From a virus, in IMG/VR virus record IMGVR_UViG_3300031963_011573, positions 1 through 64,000 of that record: 64,000 nucleotides of DNA, one strand, 5' to 3'. The notes below the pieces were generated by a model. It saw nothing but the letters and a program-made list of their open reading frames with translations, was not told the DNA's origin and did not search any database. A program made the translations under genes and the position numbers. Positions 4,075 through 27,302 of the stretch are shown here, in pieces; position 1 is the stretch's first letter, and the number at the start of each line of letters is the position of its first letter.

Positions 4075-4107
4075 GGAATAGGCTTTTAAAAAAAATTTTC
4101 GTATATT
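4075..4107 (+). promoter_or_regulatory. GGA-class promoter
   Basis: GGAATAG, 19-nt spacer, GTATATT; first member of the series. Confidence 0.75.
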
Positions 4108-4124
4108 CAAGTAAAATAAAGGAA

Positions 4125-4349
4125 ATGGCAAAAGTAATTTTAGAATTTGATCCAATTGAAGATAGAGATGATATGGAAAACGCTATCAATGGATGGAAAT
4201 GGAAAACGTTAGTATGGGATTTAGACCAGCATTTACGATCTGAATTAAAATACAATGATGCAATTACTGGGGATGTATATGATGCTTTAGAAAAAATTAG
4301 AGAGCATTTACATGAATTAAAAAATGAAAGTGGATTAACTTTAGAATAA
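4125..4349 (+). CDS. Conserved phage protein, 74 aa
   Basis: The ATG at 4125 is preferred to one at 4053 because the upstream in-frame stretch contains the promoter. The product (starts MAKVILEFDPIEDRDD, with a W-K-T-L-V-W-D-L segment and an acidic C-terminus) resembles a family I recall from many T4-type cyanophages and marine myoviruses. Function unknown. First of a tightly packed operon running to about 6.8 kb. Confidence 0.75.
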   Translation: MAKVILEFDPIEDRDDMENAINGWKWKTLVWDLDQHLRSELKYNDAITGDVYDALEKIREHLHELKNESGLTLE

Positions 4350-4352
4350 AAC

Positions 4353-4649
4353 ATGGCAAAGAGATTAACAAGAGAAGAAAAACGAGAACAAGCAGTAGTT
4401 GATTTAATCAACGAAATGTTTCGTATTGCAGGACATGATGTTACGTTTGATGATATTTTGGACCGAGAAAATTGGTTTAATGAATATGAAATGACTGAAG
4501 AGCAATATGATGAATGGAAAGCTTGGGGTAAAAAACATTTAATGAAAAAATTGGGTCTGCATGCTGCACGAGCAGAAAAAGAGATGGCTTGGGCTGGGTT
4601 ACAATGGGGATTAAAAATAAAACAAAATGAGCAAACTGAATCAAATTAA
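4353..4649 (+). CDS. Conserved phage protein, 98 aa
   Basis: Charged helical protein (starts MAKRLTREEKREQAVVDLI). A W-x-x-W-G-K-K-H-L-M segment lies around residues 51-65. Three bases after the previous gene and overlapping the next by 23 nt. It resembles hypothetical proteins of marine myoviruses; no domain recognised. Confidence 0.7.
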   Translation: MAKRLTREEKREQAVVDLINEMFRIAGHDVTFDDILDRENWFNEYEMTEEQYDEWKAWGKKHLMKKLGLHAARAEKEMAWAGLQWGLKIKQNEQTESN

Positions 4650-4941
4650 GATACCGGTTGAAATAGAGGACTCTAGACCAACCCCAAACTATAAACTAGT
4701 AAGAGAACGTGATGGGCTAGAAAAATATTCACAGGATATTATTTGGGTAGAATGGGATGAAGCAGGATACTTTAAAGACAGACATAAAGAACTTGCTATT
4801 GGCCGATCATTGTTGATGTCTCCGTTCCATCCATTTACCTTTACTTGGCAGACAACACCAGTAACAGAAATTATAGAACAAAGAGAAGACTATATTAAAT
4901 TTAGAACAGAAAATAGCAACTACGAATTATTTAAAATATGA
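4627..4941 (+). CDS. Hypothetical protein, 104 aa
   Basis: Mixed alpha/beta composition with many aromatic residues in the middle (IIWVEWDEAGYF, FHPFTFTW). No family recognised. Overlaps both neighbours, typical of this translationally coupled operon. Confidence 0.65.
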   Translation: MSKLNQIKIPVEIEDSRPTPNYKLVRERDGLEKYSQDIIWVEWDEAGYFKDRHKELAIGRSLLMSPFHPFTFTWQTTPVTEIIEQREDYIKFRTENSNYELFKI

Positions 4942-5174
4942 AAATTAACCACGAGGGAAAAGGCAGACCAGCAGAGGAAAAAATACCAACAGTTGTAGTA
5001 TATAAAAAACCAACCGGGAAAAAATACTACATGTTAGTAACAGAATCTGAAGTGGATAATATCTTGAATTCTTCAAAACGTAAACCACTTATTCCTGATG
5101 GATGTGAAATAGTTGATATTGGAATAGGAAAATCATTTATTGCAACATATAAAAAACAATACGACATAAAATGA
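4938..5174 (+). CDS. Hypothetical protein, 78 aa
   Basis: Basic small protein; starts within an ATGA overlap with the preceding stop. Predicted beta-rich middle (TVVVYKKPTGKKYYMLV). No recognised motif. Confidence 0.65.
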   Translation: MKINHEGKGRPAEEKIPTVVVYKKPTGKKYYMLVTESEVDNILNSSKRKPLIPDGCEIVDIGIGKSFIATYKKQYDIK

Positions 5175-5425
5175 ATTTTTTAGATAATTTACCTTCTATA
5201 AGCAACAATAAAGCTAAACAAATGAGACTTGACTCGTTTGAAAGAGGATTTAGAGTAGGACAAAAAGAAGCTATTGATGCTTTAAGAGATACACAAAAAT
5301 ACAATTGCAAACATTTAAATGATTTTGAAAAAGCAATAGTAATGAAATTTTTGGATGAATATAATTTAGAGTTTGGATACAATGTTGAAGAGGGTGGATT
5401 TTATGTTTTAAAACGAGTAAAATGA
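5171..5425 (+). CDS. Hypothetical protein, 84 aa
   Basis: Helical, charged protein with KAKQMRLDSFERGFRVGQKE near the N-terminus. ATGA overlap with the previous gene and again with the next. Function unknown. Confidence 0.65.
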   Translation: MNFLDNLPSISNNKAKQMRLDSFERGFRVGQKEAIDALRDTQKYNCKHLNDFEKAIVMKFLDEYNLEFGYNVEEGGFYVLKRVK

Positions 5426-5649
5426 AAACAACAAACCGAATAGACTCGGGACATGAATTATCTATATTCCTCTATGAATTAATGGCAGCTAATATAGAAA
5501 TACCATCTAATATAACATTAGAAATTGATAGTCCCTTATTTGAATCTGAAATAAATGAAATAGCACAAAATTTCTCCCCAGAAGGAGAATCTATATCAAT
5601 GAAACGATTTGAATATATGGGAAACAAAGTAACCTTTAAATCAGAATAG
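5422..5649 (+). CDS. Hypothetical protein, 75 aa
   Basis: Acidic small protein ending VTFKSE. Its last codons and stop lie in the first copy of the 23-bp junction repeat (5631-5653), which also supplies the next gene's ATG. Confidence 0.6.
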   Translation: MKTTNRIDSGHELSIFLYELMAANIEIPSNITLEIDSPLFESEINEIAQNFSPEGESISMKRFEYMGNKVTFKSE

Positions 5650-5653
5650 AATG
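5631..5653 (+). repeat. Gene-junction repeat, copy 1
   Basis: A 23-bp direct repeat starting AACCTTTAAATC and ending in an ATG start codon; identical copies at 5840 and 5971, a diverged copy at 6251. Each copy carries the stop of one gene and the start of the next. Confidence 0.85.
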
Positions 5654-5848
5654 AAAATAGAAACAAATGGAACACAAGAAATTTATAATGTTGGGGATGT
5701 TTTTATGATAGATAATCCTAATATAAATGAACCAAAAGTATTTACAACACATAAAGTAGATAATGATTGGGGTGTAGTATATTATTATCAATTAAATGGT
5801 ATTGAAGAAACAATTGGAATTAGTTATATCACAAAAATTAACCTTTAA
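5651..5848 (+). CDS. Hypothetical protein, 65 aa
   Basis: Beta-rich sequence (YNVGDVFMIDNP, WGVVYYYQLNG) that could form a small SH3-like barrel; this is only a guess from hydrophobic spacing. Lies entirely between repeat copies 1 and 2 and may be an inserted cassette. Confidence 0.6.
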   Translation: MKIETNGTQEIYNVGDVFMIDNPNINEPKVFTTHKVDNDWGVVYYYQLNGIEETIGISYITKINL

Positions 5849-5862
5849 ATCAGAATAGAATG
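5840..5862 (+). repeat. Gene-junction repeat, copy 2
   Basis: Identical to copy 1, but the upstream gene is read through it in a different frame and stops at the TAA inside. Confidence 0.85.
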
Positions 5863-7359: not shown

Positions 7360-7392
7360 GGAATAGGGAGCGCGAGCTCCCTTTCGTATATT
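7360..7392 (+). promoter_or_regulatory. GGA-class promoter with nested terminator hairpin
   Basis: GGAATAG, 19 nt, GTATATT. The spacer holds GGGAGC-GCGA-GCTCCC followed by TTT. Confidence 0.8.
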
Positions 7393-7797: not shown

Positions 7798-7830
7798 GGA
7801 ATAGTTTTTATAAAAAATATTTCGTATATT
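7798..7830 (+). promoter_or_regulatory. GGA-class promoter
   Basis: GGAATAG, 19 nt, GTATATT, followed by AAAGTATAAAA and AAAGGTTATG. Confidence 0.8.
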
Positions 7831-8086: not shown

Positions 8087-8119
8087 GGAATAGTTTAAGT
8101 AAAAAAAAGTTTGTATATT
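8087..8119 (+). promoter_or_regulatory. GGA-class promoter
   Basis: GGAATAG, 19 nt, GTATATT; drives the RecA-fold ATPase. Confidence 0.8.
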
Positions 8120-8146: not shown

Positions 8147-8956
8147 ATGAATATTGAAAGAAGAGAAATGAAACAAGAAAGAAGAGGACGCCCTTCAAAA
8201 CAACCAGAACAAGTTATATTAGATCCGTCTAAAATTTCATTAGTTAGAGGTAATGAATTACATTTTAATGAATCATTATTTACACCAATGAAAACTAACA
8301 CTGAGTTAGATGTTATATTTTCAACTGAAGGTGGATTGATGCCTGGAGTGTCAATGATGATAGCTGGAGGCCCCGGTTCAGGTAAATCTACATTAGTTTT
8401 GGATACATTAGCTAGACTTACTCAACAAGGTTATAAATGTTTATTAATACAAGGAGAAATGGACCAAATAGGACATTATAAGTATTGTAAACGGATTCCT
8501 CAGTTTGGGTGTATTCAAACATTGTTTCTAAAAGAATATATTGATAATGTAAAAGAAGTAATTGAGTATGTTTTTAATCTAGGATATGATGTTATAGGAA
8601 TCGACTCAATTGCTGAAGTACTAGATATGTACAGAAATCAAAATGGAGGAACAGCTAAACAAGCTGAAACATGGTTCTTGAAACTTCAAGATGAGACTAA
8701 GAAAGGAAAGAATGAGAAAGGATATTATACATCTTTTATCAACATACAACAATTTACTAAGAGTGATGAGTTTGCTGGGAGTAACAGATTGAAACATATG
8801 ATGGAAGCCTATGCTGAAGTAAATAGAAGTAAAGATGGGTTAGAAAGATCAATTTTCTTTAGTAAGAATAGAGATTGTGATAAGGATTTTAAAATATATT
8901 TTTCAATTTATAATGATGGAGTTTATTTCTCCTATGAATTAGAAAAAGAAGATTAA
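8147..8956 (+). CDS. RecA-fold ATPase (RadA/DnaB-like core), 269 aa
   Basis: Walker A GGPGSGKST is at residues 74-82 and a Walker B-like strand (DVIGIDSI) near residue 149. The spacing fits RecA-superfamily ATPases such as RadA/Sms, DnaB or KaiC-type proteins. The N-terminus has an AT-hook-like RRGRPSKQP (12-20), suggesting DNA contact. At 269 aa it lacks the Lon-like domain of RadA and the N-terminal domain of replicative helicases. Likely role: ATP-driven step in phage recombination or replication; the exact class is not settled. Confidence 0.8.
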   Translation: MNIERREMKQERRGRPSKQPEQVILDPSKISLVRGNELHFNESLFTPMKTNTELDVIFSTEGGLMPGVSMMIAGGPGSGKSTLVLDTLARLTQQGYKCLLIQGEMDQIGHYKYCKRIPQFGCIQTLFLKEYIDNVKEVIEYVFNLGYDVIGIDSIAEVLDMYRNQNGGTAKQAETWFLKLQDETKKGKNEKGYYTSFINIQQFTKSDEFAGSNRLKHMMEAYAEVNRSKDGLERSIFFSKNRDCDKDFKIYFSIYNDGVYFSYELEKED

Positions 8957-8958: not shown

Positions 8959-8991
8959 AGGATAGGAGAAGCAATTCTCCTATCATATATT
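8959..8991 (+). promoter_or_regulatory. GGA-class promoter, variant, with nested hairpin
   Basis: GGATAG box displaced by one base, CATATATT as second box; spacer hairpin GGAGAA/TTCTCC. Confidence 0.6.
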
Positions 8992-9143: not shown

Positions 9144-9905
9144 ATGAATTACAAATTTATCCCAGTTAACAATGATTTAAATAAAGCAGTTGCTTTTGCT
9201 AATTCATTAGACCAGAACTATTTAAAAAATGTTCAAAAAACAAAACAAAAAACATTTTATGTACCAACAATGGATATACTTGAGTCTTTACAAAAAGAAG
9301 GATGGTATATCAAAGGTGTAGATGAACATAGAGCATCAAATAGAAAAATTTCATCTAATTATGTTCAATTACATCATCCTGATTTTGAATTAAAGAATAA
9401 AAAAGGTAAAATGGAAGCTGTTTCATCTCTTACTATTTCAAATAGTTGTAATGGAAGCAGTCCGTTAACAATGAATTTAGGAATGTATAGACAAGTATGT
9501 TCTAATGGGTTAATAGCGTTTGATAAACAAGCTGAAAGTACTAAAATACGCCATATAGAGACAGATTATAATAATTTACCAAGAATATTAGCTAGTGTAA
9601 ATAACAAAGTAGATAAAGTATTAGAGCAATTTGGAATTCTACAAAATAAAAATTTAACAATAGAGGAAGCAGCTAAATTCGCCCGTCAAGCAGCCCAACT
9701 TAGATTTTCTAATAATGACATTTCTGAAACAACTGTAAATAATTTATTAGCTGTTAATCGAAATGAAGATGAAGGGATGGATTTGTGGTCTGTATTTAAT
9801 AGAGTACAAGAAAATTTAACAGGAGGAATTCGAAATATGAGTGATGATATTAGAGTTAATCAACAGTTATTTAGCTTAGCAGATCAGTATGCATTAGCAG
9901 TTTAA
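9144..9905 (+). CDS. DUF932 family protein, 253 aa
   Basis: Matches the DUF932 pattern: an N-terminal segment ending in YVPTMDILESLQKEGW, a beta-rich middle with MYRQVCSNGLIAF (about residues 112-124), and LWSVFNRVQENL with a basic C-terminal region. The family is common in phages and plasmids and its biochemical role is not established. A paralogue starts at 11021; both share V-C-x-N-G-L and D-L-W-S-V-F-N. Confidence 0.85.
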   Translation: MNYKFIPVNNDLNKAVAFANSLDQNYLKNVQKTKQKTFYVPTMDILESLQKEGWYIKGVDEHRASNRKISSNYVQLHHPDFELKNKKGKMEAVSSLTISNSCNGSSPLTMNLGMYRQVCSNGLIAFDKQAESTKIRHIETDYNNLPRILASVNNKVDKVLEQFGILQNKNLTIEEAAKFARQAAQLRFSNNDISETTVNNLLAVNRNEDEGMDLWSVFNRVQENLTGGIRNMSDDIRVNQQLFSLADQYALAV

Positions 9906-9917: not shown

Positions 9918-9950
9918 GGAAGAGCTCTTTCGAGAGCTCTTTCGTATATT
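9918..9950 (+). promoter_or_regulatory. GGA-class promoter with nested terminator hairpin
   Basis: GGAAGAG, 19 nt, GTATATT; spacer hairpin AGAGCTCT-TTCG-AGAGCTCT followed by TT. Confidence 0.8.
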
Positions 9951-10955: not shown

Positions 10956-10987
10956 AATTTGGAGAAGTAAAAAAGTTTTCGTATATT
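10955..10987 (+). promoter_or_regulatory. Host-like promoter, TTTG class
   Basis: AATTTG in place of the GGA box, same distance to GTATATT; overlaps the stop codon of the preceding gene. Confidence 0.55.
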
Positions 10988-11020: not shown

Positions 11021-11830
11021 ATGTTAGATTTAAGCAAAGATGGTTTTTTAAAAACAAGTGAAATTAAAGAAAGAGCAAGATCAATTTTCACTGAAACGGC
11101 AAGTCCAAGTGTATCAAGTAAGTTTACACATATTCCAACATTTAAAGTAATTGAGGATATGGCTCAATTAGGATGGAATGTAGTTGATGCTAAAGAAGTT
11201 AAAGCACGAGCCAAAAATAGCATTGGTTTCCAAAAACACTTAGTTGTATTCCGTAATCCTGATGTAGTAATCAATGGAGCGGATGGTGATACAGTATTTC
11301 CACAAATCCTATTGACAAATTCAAATGATGGAAAAAATGCATTTACATTTACAGCTGGTTTATTCCGTTTAGTGTGTGAAAATGGTTTGGTTATTTCAAC
11401 TGAGCAATTCAACGATGTTAAAATGCGTCACATGGGTTATACATTTGAAGAGTTGCAAACACAAATTAGAGCAATGGTTGAGCAATTGCCTTTGACAGTT
11501 GAATCAATGAACAAAATGAAATCAATTCAATTGAGTGAAGAGCAAGCAAAAGAATTAGCTACAAAAGCATTAACAACTCGTTTCACAGAAGATCAAATTG
11601 ATGCTGTTAAAATTGATTTAGATTTGTTACTTGAGCCAACACGTCCTGAAGATAAAGGTAGTGATTTATGGTCAGTGTTCAATGTAATTCAAGAAAAGAT
11701 ATTAGATGGTAATTTTAATTACATATCAGGTAATAAAGTAAGAAAAGCACGTAAAGTGAAGAATTTTAAACAAGACCTAGAAATCAATCAAAAATTATTT
11801 GCAATGGCAGCTGAATTTATAGCTGCCTAA
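11021..11830 (+). CDS. DUF932 family protein, 269 aa (paralogue)
   Basis: Second DUF932 copy: LFRLVCENGLVIS (about residues 116-128), a helical middle (LSEEQAKELATKALTTRF) and DLWSVFNVIQEKIL with a basic stretch (GNKVRKARKVKNFK) absent from the first copy. Followed after 9 bases by a tRNA-like RNA, so processing of that RNA would set the 3' end of the mRNA. Confidence 0.85.
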   Translation: MLDLSKDGFLKTSEIKERARSIFTETASPSVSSKFTHIPTFKVIEDMAQLGWNVVDAKEVKARAKNSIGFQKHLVVFRNPDVVINGADGDTVFPQILLTNSNDGKNAFTFTAGLFRLVCENGLVISTEQFNDVKMRHMGYTFEELQTQIRAMVEQLPLTVESMNKMKSIQLSEEQAKELATKALTTRFTEDQIDAVKIDLDLLLEPTRPEDKGSDLWSVFNVIQEKILDGNFNYISGNKVRKARKVKNFKQDLEINQKLFAMAAEFIAA

Positions 11831-12014: not shown

Positions 12015-12047
12015 GGACGTTTATGAGCAAAAGAAATTTCGTATATT
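12015..12047 (+). promoter_or_regulatory. GGA-class promoter
   Basis: GGACGTT, 19 nt, GTATATT; only the GGA core of the first box is kept. Confidence 0.6.
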
Positions 12048-12565: not shown

Positions 12566-12798
12566 AGCAAGTAACACCACGTGTTAAAACGCTTAACCAT
12601 ATCAGAGAGGCAGTTGGTAGAGTAACATTTACCAACATCTCTCCAACTATGAAAGCACGTCTAATTTCGTATGACGAGGAAAAGTCATATTTTGAAGTCC
12701 AACCACACCAAGAACATACAAAATATAACGAATGTGCAGGACAAATGTTTTATGTACCAACATATATGGCTATTTGTTTCAACTATATAGAGGAATAG
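12562..12798 (+). CDS. Hypothetical protein, 78 aa
   Basis: The ATG at 12562 overlaps the upstream stop (ATGA) and is preferred over one at 12454. Sequence MKQVTPRVKTLNHIREAVGR then a beta-rich part. Its final codons (GAGGAATAG) are also the first box of the next promoter. Confidence 0.6.
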   Translation: MKQVTPRVKTLNHIREAVGRVTFTNISPTMKARLISYDEEKSYFEVQPHQEHTKYNECAGQMFYVPTYMAICFNYIEE

Positions 12799-12824
12799 GT
12801 TTTAAAGTAAAAATTTCGTATATT
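12792..12824 (+). promoter_or_regulatory. GGA-class promoter
   Basis: GGAATAG (overlapping the upstream stop codon), 19 nt, GTATATT. Confidence 0.8.
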
Positions 12825-13232: not shown

Positions 13233-13265
13233 GGAATAACTCTCGTAAGAGAGCTTTCGTATATT
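13233..13265 (+). promoter_or_regulatory. GGA-class promoter with nested hairpin
   Basis: GGAATAA, 19 nt, GTATATT; spacer hairpin CTCTC-GTAA-GAGAG followed by CTTTC. Confidence 0.8.
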
Positions 13266-14911: not shown

Positions 14912-14933
14912 TTTAAAAGAATTTTCGTATATT
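14901..14933 (+). promoter_or_regulatory. GGA-class promoter
   Basis: GGAATAG, 19 nt, GTATATT; overlaps the end of the upstream gene. Confidence 0.8.
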
Positions 14934-15120: not shown

Positions 15121-15137
15121 AATAGAGATCGTATATT
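15105..15137 (+). promoter_or_regulatory. GGA-class promoter
   Basis: GGATAAA, 19 nt, GTATATT; drives the DNA ligase gene. Confidence 0.7.
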
Positions 15138-16542: not shown

Positions 16543-16568
16543 ATTTGCTAAAATAAGTTTCGTATATT
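16536..16568 (+). promoter_or_regulatory. GGA-class promoter
   Basis: GGAGTAA, 19 nt, GTATATT. Confidence 0.7.
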
Positions 16569-17052: not shown

Positions 17053-17085
17053 GGAATAGGAATTTAAAAAATCATTTTGTATATT
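17053..17085 (+). promoter_or_regulatory. GGA-class promoter
   Basis: GGAATAG, 19 nt, GTATATT. Confidence 0.8.
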
Positions 17086-17112: not shown

Positions 17113-17421
17113 ATGACACTAGCAGAAAGAAAATTAAATGTAGTAGAGTATTTAAAATATGAAAGAGATGAACGTATCCCTGAACTAATAGAAATGTATG
17201 GTGGGGACGAGCAGTATGTAATAGATGAAGTATGGGGCCCATTAGAAACATGTTTAGATGGAAAAACAGATGAAGATTTAATAAATATAGTTGATAAGAT
17301 AATGGATGATCCTTCATTTGAAAAATCCTTTAAAGAGTTTAAAGAATATATGGGAGAAAAATGGAGTGTTGAAGAGTTAGATTACGAGCTTATTTGGGAA
17401 TTTATTACAAATCATAATTAG
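17113..17421 (+). CDS. Acidic hypothetical protein, 102 aa
   Basis: Helical, strongly acidic (DERIPELIEMYGGDEQYVID, then DEDLINIVDKIMDD). No recognised family. Stop codon overlaps the GGA box of the next promoter. Confidence 0.62.
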   Translation: MTLAERKLNVVEYLKYERDERIPELIEMYGGDEQYVIDEVWGPLETCLDGKTDEDLINIVDKIMDDPSFEKSFKEFKEYMGEKWSVEELDYELIWEFITNHN

Positions 17422-17453
17422 GATTAAGTAAACCAATTTTTAATTAATATATT
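17421..17453 (+). promoter_or_regulatory. GGA-class promoter, AATATATT variant
   Basis: GGATTAA, 19 nt, ATATATT. Confidence 0.6.
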
Positions 17454-17722: not shown

Positions 17723-17866
17723 ATGGAAATACAACATTTAACCAGATCCACTTATGCAGTGGTAGACTTAAACACCGGAGAAACTCTTTTTATGGGAGGA
17801 TTAGAGGAATGTGAAGATTATCTTTGGAGTTATGAAAAAAAGTTAGAAAGGGATTACATGTATTAA
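17723..17866 (+). CDS. Hypothetical protein, 47 aa
   Basis: The ATG at 17723 is preferred over an in-frame one at 17630 inside the previous gene. Sequence AVVDLNTGETLFMGGLEECE looks beta-rich. Weak TATACC-like box upstream but no GGA box. Confidence 0.5.
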   Translation: MEIQHLTRSTYAVVDLNTGETLFMGGLEECEDYLWSYEKKLERDYMY

Positions 17867-17883
17867 AGTTTAATTAGTATATT
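17851..17883 (+). promoter_or_regulatory. GGA-class promoter
   Basis: GGATTAC, 19 nt, GTATATT; lies over the end of the upstream gene. Confidence 0.65.
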
Positions 17884-17910: not shown

Positions 17911-18702
17911 ATGGAAAGTTTAAACGAACAAGAGTACATTAAAGATCCAAATCAATTAGATCTATTTGAAGGTATATTACATACACCTGAACAAGAACAA
18001 AAAATAGCAGAGTTTATTAAAAGTAGAGAAAACACTGCTAATGTAGGTGAAAGTGTAAATAAACAACATGAACAATTACTTATCAATAATGGTTTTGTTA
18101 AAGATGTTGATTTTGTTAATACTTTTAAAGTAGAAACTGTTACTAAAGAAATACAATTAGGTTATAGTTGGCAAAAAAATCAATTTAAAGCTGAAGTGAC
18201 ATTTAAAGATGTAACAGGTTATATTTCATTAAAAGGGAAACAATTCAATTCATATAATAAACCAAATGAATTGAGTGATGTTACATTTAATGTTGATTTT
18301 GACCGAGGAGATAAAATTAATTGTTCTTCAATCCAAGGTAATTATCGCTACATTAAACCTACAACATTATTTGATAAATTGATGGAATTCAATAAACACC
18401 AGGAATATCTATTTGAAGAACATCTAAAGAAAACTGATTTAAAACAAAACATAATTGACAAATATGCAAAACTATATCCAAATGCTACAATAACTGTTAA
18501 AAACGAATGGTCAAAATATAGTGGTACATTTGATATAATTGAAGTTAAATTTGAATCAGGTAGTTTTGTTCAATTTAGATTGGATACTCATAAAAATATA
18601 GAATACCTACATAAGAAACACGATGCTGAATTTGAAGCATTAAAGATAGAGGAATTGTTAGAAAGATTTTCAAAACAAGTAAAAAAGGAAGGCTCTAATT
18701 AA
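17911..18702 (+). CDS. Hypothetical protein, 263 aa
   Basis: One of the longer accessory proteins. Helical, acidic N-terminus (residues 1-60), a beta-rich middle (FKAEVTFKDVTGYISLKGK, around 90-150) and a helical C-terminus with two similar beta segments (TFDIIEVKFESGSFVQFRL). No family recognised; no catalytic or nucleotide-binding motif visible. Confidence 0.65.
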   Translation: MESLNEQEYIKDPNQLDLFEGILHTPEQEQKIAEFIKSRENTANVGESVNKQHEQLLINNGFVKDVDFVNTFKVETVTKEIQLGYSWQKNQFKAEVTFKDVTGYISLKGKQFNSYNKPNELSDVTFNVDFDRGDKINCSSIQGNYRYIKPTTLFDKLMEFNKHQEYLFEEHLKKTDLKQNIIDKYAKLYPNATITVKNEWSKYSGTFDIIEVKFESGSFVQFRLDTHKNIEYLHKKHDAEFEALKIEELLERFSKQVKKEGSN

Positions 18703-18719
18703 AGAGCCTTTCGTATATT
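18687..18719 (+). promoter_or_regulatory. GGA-class promoter with nested terminator hairpin
   Basis: GGAAGGC, 19 nt, GTATATT; hairpin GGCTCT-AATTA-AGAGCC followed by TTTC lies across the stop codon. Confidence 0.8.
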
Positions 18720-18741: not shown

Positions 18742-19314
18742 ATGAAATTTAAAAAAGGAGACATAGTAGAATTTCAAGGAGCATATAGTTATTCTGCTAA
18801 AAAAGGAGCAACAGCTATAGTTGAAGAGTACTATACTGGATGGGATGGTGAAGAATATGTTAAAGTAAAATGGATTAGAAATGGACTATCAGGTGAACAA
18901 TCAGATGGTGGTTATTCTGAAAATTATTTTATCAAAGTAGAGGAAGTTTCTCAGCAAAAAGAAGATCGTATATTTGAAGAAAATAAGAAAGATATGAAAT
19001 TTAATTTTAATGAAGGTAAGCAACGAGTTATAGATATGTTAGAAGGACATATTGAAGATTTTGAATTTGATATGCTACAAGATGTTAAAATGTCAATACA
19101 AGATATTAACAAAAATACAGTAGACCAAATTGAAGATACTATCAGAACAATTAAAACTAACACTAACCATTGTATGAAAGCTATTGGAAAGGTACAAAAT
19201 TCATCAACTGTAGCTAAGATATTAGCATCAATGGAAAATACAATTTATGAAGGAATGGAAGAAACAGTATTGGCTGAATTGTTTGGTTTAAGTAGTATTG
19301 CAAGAGAAGATTAA
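18742..19314 (+). CDS. Hypothetical protein with small barrel-like N-domain, 190 aa
   Basis: Residues 1-65 (MKFKKGDIVEFQGAYSYSA, then YVKVKWIRNG) resemble a small SH3/KOW-type beta barrel; residues 75-190 are helical and acidic. Possibly a protein-nucleic acid or protein-protein adaptor (inference). Confidence 0.62.
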   Translation: MKFKKGDIVEFQGAYSYSAKKGATAIVEEYYTGWDGEEYVKVKWIRNGLSGEQSDGGYSENYFIKVEEVSQQKEDRIFEENKKDMKFNFNEGKQRVIDMLEGHIEDFEFDMLQDVKMSIQDINKNTVDQIEDTIRTIKTNTNHCMKAIGKVQNSSTVAKILASMENTIYEGMEETVLAELFGLSSIARED

Positions 19315-19318: not shown

Positions 19319-19351
19319 GGAATAAAAGATATTAAAAAAATTTCGTATATT
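19319..19351 (+). promoter_or_regulatory. GGA-class promoter
   Basis: GGAATAA, 19 nt, GTATATT. Confidence 0.75.
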
Positions 19352-19783: not shown

Positions 19784-20038
19784 ATGACAATAGGATTTAT
19801 ACTTATAGCACTTTTTTTCATATTGATTTCATTTCTTTATATACATGATGAAGATAGAGACCAAATAGGTTTATTTCTTTTCATATTAACAATAATAACC
19901 ATAATAGGAATGGTAATTGGTAGTGATATACAACTTGGGATAGGAACTCAATCTAAAAAACAAATCAAACCAATTATCAAAGTAGAGTGCACTAATGGAA
20001 AATGTGATACAACTTACATTTATAAAACAAAGGAATAG
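19784..20038 (+). CDS. Two-helix membrane protein, 84 aa
   Basis: Hydrophobic segments at about 2-21 and 29-47; soluble tail with Cys pair (VECTNGKCDTTYI). A disulfide or metal pair outside the cytoplasm is possible. The last codons (AAGGAATAG) form the next promoter's GGA box. Confidence 0.65.
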   Translation: MTIGFILIALFFILISFLYIHDEDRDQIGLFLFILTIITIIGMVIGSDIQLGIGTQSKKQIKPIIKVECTNGKCDTTYIYKTKE

Positions 20039-20064
20039 AAATTATCAGATATTTTTCGTATATT
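20032..20064 (+). promoter_or_regulatory. GGA-class promoter
   Basis: GGAATAG (overlapping a stop codon), 19 nt, GTATATT. Confidence 0.8.
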
Positions 20065-20087: not shown

Positions 20088-20471
20088 ATGAGTGGAGGAA
20101 CATTTGATTACAACCAATATCGCATTAGAGATATAGCTGATCGTGTTGAACAAGAAATATCTAAAAGTGGCACACCAAAAACAGAACGTGAATTAAAAGA
20201 TGAAGGTTGGTTTAGAGATAAAGAATAGTACGAAAAATACCCAGAGGACCTAAACCACTACAAATACCCTGATGAAGTTATAGAAGAATTTAAGAAAGGT
20301 TATGAAATGCTCCGCAAAGCAGAAATATATGCTCAACGTATGGATTGGTTGCTTGCAGGTGATGATGGTAATGAATCGTTTTTGCAGCGTTTAAAGGGTG
20401 AATTGTTACATTTAGAACTTGAATTAAAATCTAAAACATTTGAAATAGAGGACGAAGAAGATGAAGATTAA
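20088..20471 (+). pseudogene. Conserved phage protein interrupted by an in-frame TAG
   Basis: Residues 1-46 (start MSGGTFDYNQYRIRDIAD, then KDEGWFRDKE) end at TAG 20226-20228, but the same frame continues without another stop to TAA 20469-20471: YEKYPEDLNHYKYPDEVIEE, GYEMLRKAEIYAQRMDWLL and LAGDDGNESFLQRL. I recall intact homologues with a Trp at about this point, so a TGG-to-TAG change is the simplest explanation. Codon use after the stop looks normal and uneroded. Either a recent nonsense mutation, a sequencing error or readthrough. TAG is a normal stop elsewhere in this genome. Confidence 0.75.
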
Positions 20472-20482
20472 TTTCGTATATT
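20450..20482 (+). promoter_or_regulatory. GGA-class promoter
   Basis: GGACGAA, 19 nt, GTATATT; lies over the end of the interrupted gene. Confidence 0.6.
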
Positions 20483-20830: not shown

Positions 20831-20863
20831 GGAATAAAAGATATTAAAAAGCTTTCGTATATT
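20831..20863 (+). promoter_or_regulatory. GGA-class promoter
   Basis: GGAATAA, 19 nt, GTATATT. Confidence 0.8.
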
Positions 20864-20896: not shown

Positions 20897-21253
20897 ATGA
20901 AAAAAGAAAATGTAATTGAACAACTAAACGCAGCAAAAACGTTATCATCACAAGTTGATATTGATAAAGTAATTGCATTGATTGAACAAATCACACCAGA
21001 AGTAAAAATAGGAATTACTCAGGAATTAGCAGAGGAAATTGCAGAACGGATTGAACGAACTTTAGATTACAATAGTAATGATTTAGTTGATAAGGATAAC
21101 ATTACATTTGAAATTGCCTATGGAAACACAATTGAAATAGATGATGCTAGTATTAATATTCGTGATGTAATGGATCATATCACAGCATGTTTAGATGAAT
21201 TTGTTGTTGAAAAAGATGATGAAGAAGAATCAACAGAGGAAGCAGCTAATTAA
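20897..21253 (+). CDS. Hypothetical protein, 118 aa (paralogue of 24208)
   Basis: Same length and layout as the 24208 product: MKKEN/MKKEE start, a helical first half with S-x-V-D/V, I-E-R-T/V-L-D central motif, N-x-R/S-E/D-x-M-D-H-I and a Glu-rich tail. Duplicated phage-specific gene of unknown function. Confidence 0.72.
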   Translation: MKKENVIEQLNAAKTLSSQVDIDKVIALIEQITPEVKIGITQELAEEIAERIERTLDYNSNDLVDKDNITFEIAYGNTIEIDDASINIRDVMDHITACLDEFVVEKDDEEESTEEAAN

Positions 21254-21270
21254 AAGGGCTTTCGTATATT
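21238..21270 (+). promoter_or_regulatory. GGA-class promoter
   Basis: GGAAGCA, 19 nt, GTATATT; over the end of the upstream gene. Confidence 0.65.
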
Positions 21271-21681: not shown

Positions 21682-21714
21682 GGAATAGAAGTTATTAAAA
21701 AAATTTCGTATATT
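21682..21714 (+). promoter_or_regulatory. GGA-class promoter
   Basis: GGAATAG, 19 nt, GTATATT. Confidence 0.8.
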
Positions 21715-22085: not shown

Positions 22086-22118
22086 GGAAGTCCTCAATTA
22101 AGAGGGCTTTCGTATATT
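22086..22118 (+). promoter_or_regulatory. GGA-class promoter with nested hairpin
   Basis: GGAAGTC, 19 nt, GTATATT; spacer has GTCCTC/GAGGGC around AATTAA. Confidence 0.75.
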
Positions 22119-22456: not shown

Positions 22457-22693
22457 ATGGTAACATTAGAACAAATCAAAGCAATGATCATTAAAGAAGA
22501 AAAAGAATGGTTAATAGAAGTACATGGTGAGGATGAAGCACAACACTACATTTATGGAATGGTAAGTGAAATAAATGAATGTGAATCAATAGAAGATATT
22601 ATTGACTTTTACTTAAATAAAGGAATGGATTTATATGAAGCGACAGGTACAATAATATCACTTTTAAGAAGTAATTGTGTAGTAAAGGAATAG
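22457..22693 (+). CDS. Helical acidic protein, 78 aa
   Basis: Charged helices (LEQIKAMIIKEEKEWLIEVH). Unrecognised. Its end (AAAGGAATAG) supplies the next GGA box. Confidence 0.6.
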   Translation: MVTLEQIKAMIIKEEKEWLIEVHGEDEAQHYIYGMVSEINECESIEDIIDFYLNKGMDLYEATGTIISLLRSNCVVKE

Positions 22694-22719
22694 AAGATAT
22701 AAAATAGAGATCGTATATT
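22687..22719 (+). promoter_or_regulatory. GGA-class promoter
   Basis: GGAATAG, 19 nt, GTATATT. Confidence 0.8.
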
Positions 22720-23351: not shown

Positions 23352-23786
23352 ATGCATTACGTTTATGGATTATATTCAACTCGTCATTTAAAGAAAAATT
23401 ATCCTGAGAAGATTAAATACATTGGGAGAACAAATAACCCAACAGCTCGCCTTTTATCTCACATCAATAAAGCTAATACAGGAGAATTAAATCCATTATA
23501 TGAATGGATGAGAAATGAAATAAGTAAAGGAGGTGAAATTAAAATGACACTTCTTCACCAATGTGACTCAACTGAGATAATCGAGCAAGAAAAATTATTT
23601 ATTGAGAAAAATAAATCTAGAAATCTCTTAAATCTAGTAAATAACCCGACTATGTCACCAACACAGTCTTATAAGAAAATTAAAGCTTTAACTAAAGATA
23701 ATTTAAACTTATACACCCATATTAAATTCTTAGAACAATATATCATAAACTCAGGTTTAAAACTGCCATACGAAAAGGAAAATTAG
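23352..23786 (+). CDS. GIY-YIG endonuclease, 144 aa
   Basis: GIY-YIG core motifs: YVYGLYS (residues 3-9) and IKYIGRTNNPTARLLSHI (about 21-38), followed by an N-x-L-Y-E-W segment and a conserved Glu region (EIIEQEKLFIEKN). The ATG at 23352 starts just before the first motif and follows a late box; an upstream in-frame ATG at 23307 adds 15 residues. The C-terminal third is helical and may bind DNA. Free-standing GIY-YIG proteins in phages are often homing endonucleases; its place beside the iteron-like array fits an insertion. Confidence 0.83.
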   Translation: MHYVYGLYSTRHLKKNYPEKIKYIGRTNNPTARLLSHINKANTGELNPLYEWMRNEISKGGEIKMTLLHQCDSTEIIEQEKLFIEKNKSRNLLNLVNNPTMSPTQSYKKIKALTKDNLNLYTHIKFLEQYIINSGLKLPYEKEN

Positions 23787-23819
23787 CCACCACTCTGTTT
23801 TCGTATATTTAAAATAAAA
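23787..23819 (+). promoter_or_regulatory. GTATATT box without GGA or TTTG box
   Basis: TTTCGTATATTT is present, but at the usual distance the first box reads CCACCAC. The one clear exception in the series. Confidence 0.4.
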
Positions 23820-23828: not shown

Positions 23829-23942
23829 ATGAAAACAATACAAGTAACTCAGGCTGAAATAAATCAAGCAACCCGCCCTAACATTTATAGGAATAAAAAG
23901 AAATACACTCGTAAAATAAAACATAAAAATTCAGGGGAGTAA
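23829..23942 (+). CDS. Conserved small basic peptide, 37 aa
   Basis: Reads MKTIQVTQAEINQATRPNIY and ends YTRKIKHKNSGE. I recall very similar 35-45-residue peptides next to other genes in flavobacterial and marine phages; function unknown. Basic, so nucleic-acid contact is possible. Confidence 0.6.
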   Translation: MKTIQVTQAEINQATRPNIYRNKKKYTRKIKHKNSGE

Positions 23943-23968
23943 ATTAATTAAAGTTGGTTTCGTATATT
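23936..23968 (+). promoter_or_regulatory. GGA-class promoter
   Basis: GGAGTAA (over the stop codon), 19 nt, GTATATT. Confidence 0.7.
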
Positions 23969-23986: not shown

Positions 23987-24163
23987 ATGACAAATTTAGA
24001 TCGTTTAGAAGGATTAATTAATCAAAAACACTTAAAACAATTCATAGAGGCTATTGAATTAATAGGTGATGATTTAGTTGAAAAGGAAGGATTTGACCCT
24101 GAAGATGTAAGAGACTATTTAAACAGTTACTTAAAAGATATTTTAGGGGATGAGAATTATTAA
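23987..24163 (+). CDS. Acidic hypothetical protein, 58 aa
   Basis: Helical (MTNLDRLEGLINQKHLKQFI, then DPEDVRDYLNSYLKDIL). Promoter and AAAGTT leader support the start. No family recognised. Confidence 0.55.
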   Translation: MTNLDRLEGLINQKHLKQFIEAIELIGDDLVEKEGFDPEDVRDYLNSYLKDILGDENY

Positions 24164-24180
24164 ATTTAGTTTCGTATATT
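24148..24180 (+). promoter_or_regulatory. GGA-class promoter
   Basis: GGATGAG, 19 nt, GTATATT. Confidence 0.65.
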
Positions 24181-24207: not shown

Positions 24208-24564
24208 ATGAAAAAGGAAGAATTAATTAAAAAATTAGAGGAAGTAAAATCTTTAACAACAGTAGTATCGGTTGATACAATGATTGAGTTAGTAAAAGAG
24301 TTAAAAACAGGAGGAATTACACCTGAATTACATGATGAGATTTATAATAAGATTGAACGGGTATTAGATAATAATCATAATGAGTTAGTTGATTTGGAAA
24401 GTGCTGAGTTTGAATTAAATTATGATAATAGAATTGAGTTAAATAGAGTGGATGTTAATATCTCAGAAATAATGGATCATATCTCAGGAGTATTTGAAGA
24501 TTTTATGGTTGAGGAAGATGAAGAAGAAACTGAAGAAGAAACTGAAGAGGAGGGCTCTAATTAA
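24208..24564 (+). CDS. Hypothetical protein, 118 aa (paralogue of 20897)
   Basis: Second copy of the 118-aa family: KIERVLDNNHNELVD in the centre, ISEIMDHISGVFEDFM near the end and a Glu-rich tail of simple repeats (EEETEEE). Own GGA-class promoter, as for the first copy. Function unknown. Confidence 0.7.
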   Translation: MKKEELIKKLEEVKSLTTVVSVDTMIELVKELKTGGITPELHDEIYNKIERVLDNNHNELVDLESAEFELNYDNRIELNRVDVNISEIMDHISGVFEDFMVEEDEEETEEETEEEGSN

Positions 24565-24581
24565 AGAGCTCTTCTTATATT
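24549..24581 (+). promoter_or_regulatory. GGA-class promoter with nested hairpin
   Basis: GGAGGGC, 19 nt, TTATATT; hairpin GGGCTCT-AATTA-AGAGCTC lies across the stop codon. Confidence 0.65.
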
Positions 24582-24599: not shown

Positions 24600-24803
24600 A
24601 TGAGAGCAAGTACAATCAGGAAAAAAGAGACACTCCAACAATTAAAGAATTTAGAATATCGTTTTAAGAAAAAAGGTGGATACTCTAATTGGGACTCAAA
24701 AGTGAAAATAACATTTCAGGCTTCAGGTTCATATTCGTTTGAGGATTTGGTTTATAAAGACATTAACTCAGCAGAATGTTTGATTAATATATTCAAGGAT
24801 TAA
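24600..24803 (+). CDS. Hypothetical protein, 67 aa
   Basis: Basic helical N-terminus (TIRKKETLQQLKNLEYRFKKK), then a beta-rich end. Possible small nucleic-acid-binding protein; not recognised. Confidence 0.58.
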   Translation: MRASTIRKKETLQQLKNLEYRFKKKGGYSNWDSKVKITFQASGSYSFEDLVYKDINSAECLINIFKD

Positions 24804-24829
24804 TTTAATTTAGATTCGATTCGTATATT
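24797..24829 (+). promoter_or_regulatory. GGA-class promoter
   Basis: GGATTAA (over the stop codon), 19 nt, GTATATT. Confidence 0.7.
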
Positions 24830-25014: not shown

Positions 25015-25047
25015 GGAATAAATATAATTAAATTTGATTAGTATATT
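25015..25047 (+). promoter_or_regulatory. GGA-class promoter
   Basis: GGAATAA, 19 nt, GTATATT. Confidence 0.75.
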
Positions 25048-25069: not shown

Positions 25070-25279
25070 ATGAGACCAGAATTTACAGTTGAGGAAGGAT
25101 TAAAAATCCAAGCCGAGCATTTAACCCAATGGAAAACAATTCTAATACCTGAGGTATATGAAGCGTTAGAAGAGTATACTAAACGGAACAATGACAAAGC
25201 CCAAACAGGATATGATGTTCGTAGAGGGTGTGATTTAGATTTTTATATTAACAACTATATGTTGGGACACAGATTGTAA
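25070..25279 (+). CDS. Hypothetical protein, 69 aa
   Basis: Helical (FTVEEGLKIQAEHLTQWKTI) with a short basic stretch (DVRRGCDLDFYI). Unrecognised. Confidence 0.58.
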   Translation: MRPEFTVEEGLKIQAEHLTQWKTILIPEVYEALEEYTKRNNDKAQTGYDVRRGCDLDFYINNYMLGHRL

Positions 25280-25297
25280 ATAGTTAATTCGTATATT
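25265..25297 (+). promoter_or_regulatory. GGA-class promoter
   Basis: GGACACA, 19 nt, GTATATT. Confidence 0.6.
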
Positions 25298-25324: not shown

Positions 25325-25531
25325 ATGAAAAGGTATTTAAAAGTTGATTTTGAATTAAGTTTTACAAGTATTTGTGATACTAAAGAAGAGGTAATTGAGG
25401 GGTGTGGTTATGATATTGATGAAATTACATTTGAGGAGTTGTTAGAGGAGGTAAAGGGTGTTTATGAAATTATTGAAATTGAAGGTGATGTTAGATGGTT
25501 GAATGATGTTGATGATGAAGATGAGGAATAA
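25325..25531 (+). CDS. Acidic hypothetical protein, 68 aa
   Basis: Starts MKRYLKVDFELSFTS, then very acidic, ending in a run of Asp/Glu. Its last codons overlap the next GGA box. No family recognised. Confidence 0.58.
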   Translation: MKRYLKVDFELSFTSICDTKEEVIEGCGYDIDEITFEELLEEVKGVYEIIEIEGDVRWLNDVDDEDEE

Positions 25532-25557
25532 GTAGATTAAAAATAAATTAGTATATT
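25525..25557 (+). promoter_or_regulatory. GGA-class promoter
   Basis: GGAATAA (over the stop codon), 19 nt, GTATATT. Confidence 0.75.
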
Positions 25558-25782: not shown

Positions 25783-25815
25783 GGATTAAATAAATTAAAT
25801 CAAAATTAGTATATT
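25783..25815 (+). promoter_or_regulatory. GGA-class promoter
   Basis: GGATTAA directly after the stop codon, 19 nt, GTATATT. Confidence 0.7.
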
Positions 25816-25844
25816 TAAGTATAATTAAAATAAAAATAAAGGTT

Positions 25845-26183
25845 ATGGAAAGAAATGAATTAGTTAAAAAAGCTTTAGAAGCAGGGATTACAAAAGCAAA
25901 TACTATGAAGAGTGTAGTATTGGAAGAAATGTTAAAAGAATTAGAAGTTAAGAAAACAGGTAAGAGAGGAAGACCAATTAATGAAGACAGTGTTAGACAA
26001 AAAAGAATTAAAGAATTAGAGAATAAAAGAATAAATGGAGAATTGAAAAAAGGACGACCAGTAAATGAAAATAGTGTTAGACAGATGAGGTTAAAAGAGA
26101 TGGAGTTAAAGAGAATGAATGGAGAGTTGAGAAGAGGAAGACCAAAAATGAATAAAACGGATAATAATGAGGTAGCCGCTTAG
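25845..26183 (+). CDS. AT-hook repeat protein, 112 aa
   Basis: Three AT-hook cores (KRGRP about 41-45, KKGRP about 68-72, RRGRP about 95-99) are spaced 27 residues apart by near-identical linkers with the pattern N-E-x-S-V-R-Q-x-R-x-K-E-x-E-x-K-R-x-N-G-E-L. The N-terminal 35 residues are a separate helical segment. AT-hooks insert into the minor groove of AT-rich DNA, which is abundant here (26889-27045). A nucleoid-type or regulatory DNA-binding role is likely. Its stop codon lies in the loop of a terminator hairpin. Confidence 0.8.
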   Translation: MERNELVKKALEAGITKANTMKSVVLEEMLKELEVKKTGKRGRPINEDSVRQKRIKELENKRINGELKKGRPVNENSVRQMRLKEMELKRMNGELRRGRPKMNKTDNNEVAA

Positions 26184-26196: not shown

Positions 26197-26215
26197 ATTT
26201 ATTAATTAGTATATT
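26183..26215 (+). promoter_or_regulatory. Degenerate GGA-class promoter
   Basis: First box reads GGCTACC (arm of the terminator hairpin), 19 nt, GTATATT. Confidence 0.5.
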
Positions 26216-26240
26216 TAAGTATAATTAAAAAATAAAAGTT

Positions 26241-26366
26241 ATGAGCAGAGAAGAATATTTAGAATTAAAATTAATGGCGTTTCTAGTGACACAAGAATTA
26301 GCTTGTGAGATTTTATTTTTACCAGGTACATTTAAATTTGAAGACGCAATTATAAGACCAAATTAA
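26241..26366 (+). CDS. Hypothetical protein, 41 aa
   Basis: Reads MSREEYLELKLMAFLVTQEL onward; helical and moderately hydrophobic. One base before the next gene. Unrecognised. Confidence 0.55.
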   Translation: MSREEYLELKLMAFLVTQELACEILFLPGTFKFEDAIIRPN

Positions 26367-26367
26367 T

Positions 26368-26607
26368 ATGAGAAGAGTAGACATGATAAAGAAGCTTCAA
26401 TTAGCGGAAGCTAAAGCATGGGTGACAATGATGGAGTGGGGTAAGTTATTCGGCCATAATGAACAATATGAAATAAAAGCGAGTGCGTGGAATAGTTTAT
26501 ATTCAGCGTTATTAACACTCAACTTAGAACCAGATCGCGAATTACGAGCACAGTTAATTGAAGCGGATATAAAATGTAATGGCTTAACAGGGACTAATTT
26601 TAACTAA
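26368..26607 (+). CDS. Hypothetical protein, 79 aa (paralogue of 20505)
   Basis: Same length and pattern as the 20505 product (helical start, FGHN/FGEK, S-A-W, L-x-L-x-P-D). Base composition is less AT-rich than its neighbours. Function unknown. Confidence 0.62.
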   Translation: MRRVDMIKKLQLAEAKAWVTMMEWGKLFGHNEQYEIKASAWNSLYSALLTLNLEPDRELRAQLIEADIKCNGLTGTNFN

Positions 26608-26623
26608 ATTGGCTTCGTATATT
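26591..26623 (+). promoter_or_regulatory. GGA-class promoter
   Basis: GGACTAA, 19 nt, GTATATT. Confidence 0.7.
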
Positions 26624-26648
26624 TAGTCATAATTAAAAATAAAATAAT

Positions 26649-26855
26649 ATGAAGAGCTTAGAAAATTTTATTGACGACAATTTTAACGAATTTAGTAATT
26701 TAGATTGCAGTGAAGTGATTGAGTGTAGTTTAGATGAGTTTGATAGTGTTGAGATCGAATACTTAAAAGAGCATTATAGATTCGATTATAAAGACATTTG
26801 TGTTTATTATGTTGAGGAGAATGATGAGATATGGATTGAAAATATGGCGAGTTAG
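26649..26855 (+). CDS. Acidic hypothetical protein, 68 aa
   Basis: Asp/Glu-rich (SLENFIDDNFNEFSNLDCSE). Unrecognised. Stop is directly followed by a GGA box. Confidence 0.55.
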   Translation: MKSLENFIDDNFNEFSNLDCSEVIECSLDEFDSVEIEYLKEHYRFDYKDICVYYVEENDEIWIENMAS

Positions 26856-26888
26856 GGAATAATTTTAATAAAATTAGTTTAGTATATT
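26856..26888 (+). promoter_or_regulatory. GGA-class promoter
   Basis: GGAATAA, 19 nt, GTATATT; faces the AT-only stretch. Confidence 0.65.
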
Positions 26889-27045
26889 TAATTATATTTA
26901 AAAATAAAAAATAATATATTTAATTTAATAAAAAATAAAATTATATTTAAATAAATAATATAATATAAAGGATTAAATTTAAATAAAATTATTTAATATA
27001 TTTAAATAAATAAAATAATTAATTAATAATTTAAAATTTAAAATT
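26889..27045 (+). other. Near-pure A+T stretch, no gene
   Basis: About 157 bases with hardly any G or C (a GG near 26972 is the main exception), built of TATATTTAA, AATAAATAA and TTAATTAA pieces. Several TATATTTAA units resemble extra -7 boxes. Candidate melting region, origin element or long AT leader. The AT-hook protein is encoded 0.8 kb upstream. Confidence 0.6.
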
Positions 27046-27276
27046 ATGGAGGATTTAAAATTAAAATTAGAAGAATTAGGATTAGAAGTTAATTATGTTG
27101 GGGAGGATAATAGTGGATATGAAGATGATGGTTATTTAAATATAAATGGAGAAATAGATATATTTGAAGGGGCATACCAGAAATGGGATATTTATATAGA
27201 AGAGGGAGATATAGAGAAAAGTTTTATGAGTGATGATGAGTTAATTATGTTTTTAAAAGATTATATTAAGGAATAA
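27046..27276 (+). CDS. Acidic hypothetical protein, 76 aa
   Basis: Rich in Asp, Glu and Gly (EVNYVGEDNSGYEDDGYLNI). No family recognised. Stop overlaps the next GGA box. Confidence 0.55.
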   Translation: MEDLKLKLEELGLEVNYVGEDNSGYEDDGYLNINGEIDIFEGAYQKWDIYIEEGDIEKSFMSDDELIMFLKDYIKE

Positions 27277-27302
27277 TTTTAATTAAATTAATTTAATATA
27301 TT
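27270..27302 (+). promoter_or_regulatory. GGA-class promoter, ATATATT variant
   Basis: GGAATAA, 19 nt, ATATATT; last GGA-class site of the series. Confidence 0.65.

Follow-up and report, generated by a model that had tools for sequence, protein, structure and literature searches.

A GGAATAG promoter class occupying the place of the host -33 element in a clade of T4-like phages of Bacteroidota-type bacteria

The window analyzed here is the whole 64-kb stretch of DNA, part of a 106-kb T4-like phage fragment, and it raises the question of what reads a two-box element, GGAATAG followed at a fixed distance by GTATATT, that recurs throughout its small-gene cluster. We confirm that the element is real and not due to chance. 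GGA-N23-GTATATT occurs in 34 exact copies on the + strand, from about 4.0 to 27.4 kb, and in none on the - strand, and 38 N19 sites (+ strand, 4075-27302) are found when any base is allowed before TATATT. The initial annotation had counted about 36 two-box promoters with a fixed 19-nt spacer, which these numbers bear out, and had named shuffled sequence as a check; in 1000 dinucleotide shuffles the mean was 0.054 pairs and the maximum 1. The strict form GGAATAR-N19-GTATATT is present 16 times in the window versus 0 in 100 shuffles, and GTATATT alone 41 times on the + strand versus 3.9 expected. The spacing is rigid: GGA was not found at N18-N22 or N24-N33 in the window, GGAATA-N20-GTATATT gave 16 matches and every other spacer from 14 to 33 gave 0, and across the clade GGAATA-N21-TATATT was found 193 times versus once at N20 and once at N22. 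It might be argued that an AT-rich window (approximately 30% G+C) would generate such a pattern by itself, or that it is a repeat other than a promoter. However, the near-zero shuffles, the strand bias, the position some 20-50 nt ahead of gene starts and the host-type box that sister phages have at the corresponding promoter position leave this explanation next to no probability, and as chance it is already refuted.

The sites, all on the + strand, vary mostly beyond the GGA core. GGAATAG is found at 4075-4107 (with N19-GTATATT), 7360-7392, 7798-7830, 8087-8119 (promoter of 8147-8956, encoding a KaiC/RecA-like ATPase), 12792-12824, 14901-14933, 17053-17085, 20032-20064, 21682-21714 and 22687-22719, and GGAATAA at 13233-13265, 19319-19351, 20831-20863, 25015-25047, 25525-25557, 26856-26888 and 27270-27302. 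GGATTAA is found at 17421-17453, 24797-24829, 25783-25815 and 26970-27002, and GGAGTAA at 16536-16568 and 23936-23968. The other boxes are GGACGTT (12015-12047), GGATAAA (15105-15137), GGATTTT (16199-16231, hybrid-like, containing TTTTG), GGATTAC (17851-17883), GGACGAA (20450-20482), GGAAGCA (21238-21270), GGAAGTC (22086-22118), GGATGAG (24148-24180), GGACACA (25265-25297), GGACTAA (26591-26623), and GGAAGTT in a promoter-like site (18942-18974) within the ORF 18742-19314. The base before TATATT is A or T instead of G at four sites, ATATATT at 17421, 26970 and 27270 and TTATATT at 24549. The single site described in the initial annotation as off by one base is indeed so: GGATAGG at 8960-8991 has an N18 spacer within a 10-bp hairpin. 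The box reported missing near 23787 is present, because a GGA core (GGAAAAT, 23777-23809) sits there in the right register, while the GTATATT at 26209 is preceded by GGC in place of GGA. The statement that nearly every short operon carries the element goes slightly too far: of 27 ORFs that a simple ORF caller places at the head of an operon, 19 have it. One of the exceptions is the DUF932 gene, at 11021-11830 within the GGA cluster, which is preceded by a TTG promoter (10959-10987, +).

It seems that only one half of the promoter is peculiar to these phages. The downstream half, TTTCG-TATATTT, is common to their GGA and ordinary TTG promoters and is a -7 element of the host sigma-A kind (TAnnTTT), as the initial annotation had recognized; TATATT is present at every site and the next base is T at 61% of window sites. 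The upstream half, GGAATAG, with GGA nearly invariant, lies exactly at the place of the host -33 TTG (GGA at -39 to -37 and GGAATAG at -39 to -33, centred at about -36, when TA is at -12/-11). The view of this box as phage-specific and distinct from the host TTTG also holds. Only a few window promoters have TTG at -33, among them the DUF932 promoter, a TTG-N20-TATATT promoter of the metallophosphoesterase gene (3318-3346, +), which serves as the comparison class, and one at 29191-29219 (+). Within these phages, TTG promoters share the -7 element, the TTTC extension and the leader with GGA promoters. Moreover, spacing rigidity alone is no pointer to a special factor, because the phage TTG promoters are almost as rigid as the GGA ones. 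Host-type TTG promoters remain in front of the replication genes, while GGA drives the small-gene cluster. Some lineages mix GGA, TTG and hybrid boxes (GGAATTG).

In the relatives, represented by 17 further records, the corresponding small-gene cluster also has GGA boxes. With the proteins used as tblastn queries, no cultured phage of the GGA type turned up in the phage collection. The closest isolates, the group of Flavobacterium phage immuto, have host-type TTG in the same register and no GGA; immuto and 80 related loci gave 174 such TTG sites and 0 GGA. The box of the immuto cluster extends past the host TTG to AGTTGC, as if a phage-specific reader were present there too. In the outgroup, the Mel-JY01 section has 11 TTG sites versus 2.8 expected and no GGA. 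In a tree built from one baseplate protein, the GGA carriers form one side of a branch with support of 100/100; therefore, the most likely history is a single replacement of TTG by GGA at the promoters of the small-gene cluster, in the common ancestor of the GGA carriers. Across the two clades, 43 ortholog pairs have GGA on one side and TTG on the other; the gene family behind the 20831-20863 promoter, for example, has GGA in 13/13 members of the GGA clade and TTG in 3/3 of the immuto clade, and the DUF932 promoter has retained the TTG type in most relatives. Within the GGA clade itself there are 153 swapped GGA/TTG ortholog pairs versus 369 GGA-GGA pairs, which would be easily explained if one unmodified polymerase reads both words. 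This interchange, with hybrids such as GGAATTG sharing the same -7 and leader, makes a serious rival of the proposal that host sigma-A holoenzyme, unmodified and without the need for a phage factor, recognizes GGAATAG by itself, much as E. coli RNA polymerase acts on over-optimised T4 early promoters. The box would then be an alternative, strong upstream element contacted by sigma region 4 or by alpha-CTD. It is in line with this proposal that the GGA class drives a T4-early-like small-gene cluster, and that T4 early promoters have extra consensus sequence atypical of the host (PMC2988021). However, immuto-clade phages never use GGA in the same cluster, and the sampled Bacteroidota genomes show a TTG peak but no GGA class. 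On balance, we consider direct reading unlikely, though well worth keeping in view.

The genome scans were as follows. The long GGA pattern gave six single matches in 84,980 GTDB genomes. In 395 Bacteroidota genomes there were 30 matches, versus 23 when the pattern was reversed (p = 0.41). At TAnnTTTG sites in host DNA, TTG peaks at offset 22-23 (33/179 in G085), and GGA at offset 27 occurred only 0 and 2 times in two 400-kb samples. The GGA promoter class is thus absent from the sampled Bacteroidota genomes, which are not known hosts of these phages. In TTTG-rich genomes GGAA-N23-TAnnTTTG was found 105 times versus 62; we set this excess aside, as TTTG shows 364 versus 103 in those genomes and the control is uncorrected for the enrichment of TAnnTTTG itself. 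ECF sigma promoters have the form GGAAC-N15-17-CGT. The phage element shares their GGAAT and CGT words, but here a fixed 20 bases separate the two, roughly 3 bp more than at an ECF promoter. We rejected an alternative sigma regulon of the host, because neither the GTDB nor the 395-genome scan shows a GGA class and the spacing is wrong for an ECF factor.

A phage-encoded sigma factor that reads the whole GGA promoter appears improbable. The resemblance of GGAAT to ECF -35 boxes would favor it, as would an ECF-type sigma gene in contigs G008 and L085 and a 245-aa protein (32169-32906, +) with weak similarity to sigma-70 region 2, for which the G007 orthologue reached E 0.0017 in Pfam and the match to PHROG late sigma had E 0.22. 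However, the ECF gene was found in these two contigs only, so that a universal phage ECF sigma was rejected, and no ECF gene is common to the GGA clade. The distance from GGA to CGT is longer than at ECF promoters, and the -7 half is identical to that of the TTG promoters. The sigma-like protein has orthologues in both clades, the TTG clade having it just as the GGA clade does. It is probably a late sigma like gp55 and is not expected to read the GGA box; a separate late promoter, ATATTTATA, which lacks an upstream box, is a better fit for a factor of the gp55 type.

The initial annotation had suggested a phage activator or sigma appropriation acting like the T4 middle system, with a new box. 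This view is supported in part. The new box stands as far as searched, and so do its phage specificity and its position at -33. For an activator or sigma appropriation, which would be a further step, no MotA or AsiA match reached threshold in 21 related records and no single gene tracks the box perfectly. As in T4 middle promoters, the host -10 type element is kept, a phage box replaces the upstream host element, the spacing is near-fixed and there are dozens of copies. The MotA box, in contrast, is TGCTT centred at -30 (PMC2988021), whereas GGAATAG spans -39 to -33; in 21 related records no MotA homologue scored over the cut-off (the window record is incomplete) and no AsiA homologue was matched. 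Gene content also runs opposite to the T4 middle analogy, since it is the small genes that are under GGA and the replication genes that keep TTG. By content, the cluster is a host-takeover-type, T4-early-like gene set, and the GGA class resembles T4 early promoters more than middle ones: many near-identical promoters precede small genes of this type, with extended conserved sequence around -10. T4 early promoters, however, still match the host -35 well, and here the -33 word is replaced.

Hairpins within the spacer are a second property of the element. Stems of at least 5 bp occur in 62 of 379 clade GGA sites versus 7 in shuffles, and in 6 of 40 window sites versus 0.7 expected, as at 7360-7392 (stem 7), 9918-9950 (GGAAGAG, stem 9), 13233-13265, 18687-18719 (GGAAGGC, stem 8) and 24549-24581 (GGAGGGC), besides the N18 site. 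The arrangement of promoter and stem-loop between small ORFs in a plastic region recalls the PeSL cassettes of T4-like myoviruses. PeSLs, as summarized in later work, use host-like early promoters; the box here is not host-like, and the stem lies inside the promoter spacer. The elements may also, in addition to being promoters, be mobile promoter-terminator cassettes of this kind, in which the intrinsic terminator of the upstream gene is folded into the promoter spacer and the copies provide homologous joints for small-gene shuffling. The clear excess of stems and the many similar repeats between small ORFs are consistent with this, as are the passages of PMC4503421 (citing Arbiol 2010 and Comeau 2014) that place PeSLs densely in T4-like shuffling regions. 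Stems are nevertheless found at a minority of sites, and we regard the suggestion as somewhat doubtful.

With half of the host promoter signal exchanged for GGAATAG, a viral factor probably helps the host RNA polymerase. The reading that we prefer, with about as much confidence as doubt, is that of a phage-clade promoter class in which the host sigma-A -7 is kept and the -33 contact is replaced, the box most likely being recognized by a phage-supplied component. This could be a phage DNA-binding protein that acts with the host sigma-A holoenzyme, replacing the contact of sigma region 4 with -33, or a phage-modified region 4 that itself reads the box; host RNA polymerase would transcribe these promoters, presumably early. 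The candidate regulators are imperfect, which counts against this reading, and no single gene was found to track the box perfectly across records. The 112-aa GRP-repeat protein (25845-26183, +), under its own GGATTAA promoter at 25783, combines a short, helical, SAP-like N-terminus with repeats of [KR]GRPxNxxSxRQxR, whose GRP cores are AT-hook-like, and is present in 20/27 GGA records and 0/10 TTG records; its predicted structure has four helices, at a pTM of 0.34. It is weakened as sole regulator by its absence from G007, which still has seven GGA sites and one GGAATTG hybrid. The second candidate, an HTH/dead-HNH protein encoded outside the window, occurs in the TTG clade as well, and G006 yielded no clear orthologue of it. 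Its AlphaFold model is of only moderate confidence, with a pTM of 0.38, and gave nothing significant by Foldseek against the PDB, nor did PDB profile searches give a significant match. Two further proteins were rejected: a 155-aa SWIM zinc-finger protein, with a TTG promoter and confined to the GGA clade, was absent in a search of G008, G010, G024, G006 and G020, and a 127-142 aa helical protein adjoining the HTH/dead-HNH gene is in both clades and has no family match. More tentatively, the factor could be a phage DNA-binding protein, unrelated to MotA or AsiA, that redirects the sigma-A holoenzyme of Bacteroidota to GGAATAG. Its origin might lie in a homing endonuclease (HTH with a catalytically dead HNH), or it might be the AT-hook-like GRP-repeat protein. 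This would constitute a second, independently evolved sigma appropriation, with a box that differs between sister clades (AGTTGC and GGAATAG).

Phage takeover of the unusual transcription machinery of Bacteroidota has been little studied. These phages offer a natural swap experiment, between sister clades and within mixed genomes, in which genes, -7 and leader are the same and the upstream word alone is exchanged; therefore, what reads -33 during infection is directly testable. The GGA sites supply flavobacterial genetics with a defined panel of candidate promoters, and the element is a sequence signature for a large, apparently abundant and uncultured family of viruses of Bacteroidota-type bacteria.

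We find that the GGA promoter class is real and specific to a phage clade. When every GTATATT in the window (bases 1-64000 of the 106,060-base virus record) was listed together with its upstream sequence, GGA-N23-GTATATT was found 34 times on the + strand between 4.0 and 27.4 kb and never on the opposite strand, and spacers of N18-N22 or N24-N33 between GGA and GTATATT were absent from that stretch and strand. Chance gives no comparable number (mean 0.054, maximum 1 in 1000 dinucleotide shuffles). The number of sites, the register and the rigidity reported in the initial annotation were correct, and its site one base short was confirmed at 8960; the site that it described as lacking the box was misread, since GGAAAAT is present at 23777. 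Leaving the base preceding TATATT free gives 38 sites, and TATATT lies about 20-50 nt upstream of the following ORF where one is called. The window logo runs A-GGA-ATA[AG], TAAAA in mid-spacer and TTTCG-TATATT-TAAGTATAATTAAAA, and an A is placed 12 bases upstream of TATATT in 97% of the sites. In some sites the spacer holds a hairpin followed by TTTC, the shape of an intrinsic terminator (7360, 8960, 9918, 13233, 18687 and 24549; 6 of 40 window sites against 0.7 expected, and 62 of 379 across the whole clade against 7 in shuffles). Because the hairpin lies inside the promoter spacer, one element may both terminate transcription of the preceding gene and initiate that of the following one. The hairpin-bearing sites resemble the promoter/stem-loop (PeSL) cassettes of T4-type phages (PMC4503421, citing Arbiol 2010 and Comeau 2014).

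Terminase, head protease, baseplate wedge and metallophosphoesterase were recognized in this phage, and its relatives also encode a DNA-polymerase sliding clamp and clamp loader. The nearest isolate found is the 160-kb Flavobacterium phage vB_FspM_immuto_2-6A (immuto), with a region syntenic with the window. The promoters of its small-gene cluster have the same layout with the box [AT]AGTTG(C), whose TTG is placed exactly as it is in sigma-A promoters of the host; GGA promoters are absent from it. A pattern scan of IMG/VR (GGAATAR-N17-TCGTATATT) matched at least 118 stretches; among the matches listed, about 80 have two or more GGA promoters, which within a stretch keep to one strand except in locus L117. 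We retrieved 17 GGA-type records in full, and two more of the TTG type. GGA sites are absent from 80 immuto-like loci (174 TTG sites), from 10 TTG-type records and from 42 kb of Microcystis phage Mel-JY01, a section that was reached via the sigma-like protein and has 11 TTG sites against 2.8 expected. In a baseplate-protein tree, every GGA carrier falls on one side of one branch (support 100/100). Taken together, TTG without GGA in these three sets and the one-branch tree make a single replacement of TTG by GGA the most likely history from sequence comparison.

Three promoter classes can be distinguished. Host-type TTTGG-N19-TATATT precedes replication genes, DUF932 and metallophosphoesterase, and GGAATAG serves the small-gene cluster. 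Of the two DUF932 paralogues (9144-9905 and 11021-11830), the second has a host-type TTG promoter inside the GGA cluster, kept in most relatives. The third class, ATATTTATA/ATATGTATA, has no upstream box, occurs in both clades (35714, 38318, 48535 and 52198 in the window, past 64 kb in the same genome, in immuto and in the related record G003), lies mostly 10-30 nt ahead of structural and other genes, and is probably a late promoter class. It is reminiscent of the T4 late promoter, TATAAATA (reverse complement TATTTATA). A 245-aa protein (32169-32906), with orthologues in 18 records of both clades and annotated only as hypothetical in immuto, has weak similarity to sigma-70 region 2. In genome searches at least nine records gave a match where the orthologue lies (E 5e-5 to 0.03); these matches and those of the G007 orthologue (Pfam E 0.0017; PHROG 'late sigma' E 0.22) are weak yet converging, and the protein is probably a gp55-like late sigma. 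Its orthologue in Mel-JY01 lies at PP395634.1 158764-159534; that phage has Bacteroidota-style TTG-N20-TATATT sites and a recorded host, Microcystis elabens, that may merit a second look.

With regard to the reader of the box, MotA and AsiA profiles gave no match over threshold in 21 related records. Sigma-70 region 4 exceeded threshold in G008 only; the gene concerned is of the ECF type, and L085 carries a relative. Within the small-gene cluster this gene was seen in these two related phages only (G008, reversed contig 42484-43077; L085, 8988-9569). The best tracker of the GGA box is a protein with SAP and two to three AT-hook-like GRP repeats (25845-26183), present in 20 of 27 GGA records and 0 of 10 TTG records. 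Records lacking it are mostly partial or GGA-poor; G007 lacks it despite its cluster, seven GGA sites and one additional hybrid site. The second candidate is encoded beyond the window: a protein of 213-226 aa that combines an HTH at its N-terminus with an HNH zinc domain (PHROG E 1e-5 to 3e-10; reversed contig 76362-77015 in G003, 61395-62060 in immuto). Its catalytic His is Phe in all orthologues shown, and it is apparently a domesticated homing endonuclease. Apart from G006, all records that cover the stretch immediately upstream of the cluster have it, as do 3 of 3 TTG-clade genomes. For its predicted recognition helix, most GGA genomes have YQHLKP, whereas G019 has YWHLKD, G010, G013, G014 and G024 have YQHIKP, G007 has YIHYKK and the TTG clade has FVHYKK; this covariation with the box is confounded with phylogeny. 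Since about 70 kb of genome is missing from the window record relative to G003, a regulator may be encoded beyond it.

The box is phage-specific as far as sampled, although the sampled genomes may not be the true hosts. Among 84,980 GTDB genomes, AGGAATAR-N15-TTTCGTATATT gave six single matches spread across phyla, and in 395 Bacteroidota genomes GGAATAR-N19-GTATATT occurred 30 times and its reversed control 23 times (p = 0.41). Intergenic TAnnTTTG sites were examined in two Bacteroidota genomes, 400 kb of each: TTG peaked at offset 22-23 (33 in G085, where the background is 3.7 per offset), whereas GGA occurred at offset 27 zero and two times. Mapping of TSSs in F. psychrophilum distinguishes sigma-A variants of TAnnTTTG, a sigma-54 motif, TAnnTTGY and an ECF motif that includes a CGT box, and no GGA/TATATT class in the part consulted (PMC9723704). 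Within open-access literature, weak evidence of absence, nothing naming such a box was found.

The GGA element is thus rigid and two-part, its downstream half common to host-type promoters and its upstream half, in the TTG register, confined to one phage clade. We give about an even chance to a mechanism in which host sigma-A holoenzyme would read TATATT and the GGA box would be read either by a factor that the phage supplies or by a sigma region 4 that it modifies. The main rival, that the unmodified host enzyme reads GGA directly, is less likely but serious; in its favor, the GGA-driven gene set is T4-early-like and the two boxes interchange. Reading by a phage sigma is less likely again, and we regard it as improbable. 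In T4 middle promoters the -10 is still that of the host, whereas a MotA box centred at -30 takes the place of the -35; these promoters require MotA and AsiA and mainly drive replication and nucleotide-metabolism genes (PMC2988021). The proposal of T4-middle-like action holds in that an upstream element is replaced, but box, position, known factors and gene set differ; by analogy the GGA box may work like a replaced -35 box, and membership in the MotA/AsiA system finds no support here. Intermediate genomes (G007, G010, G013, G014, G020 and G024) mix GGA and TTG boxes, some with the hybrid GGAATTG, over an unchanged -7 and leader. In 43 pairs of orthologous genes the GGA-clade member has GGA and its TTG-clade counterpart TTG, and within the GGA clade 153 swapped pairs stand against 369 GGA-GGA pairs. 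This exchange is a cleaner natural experiment than could have been known from the initial annotation.
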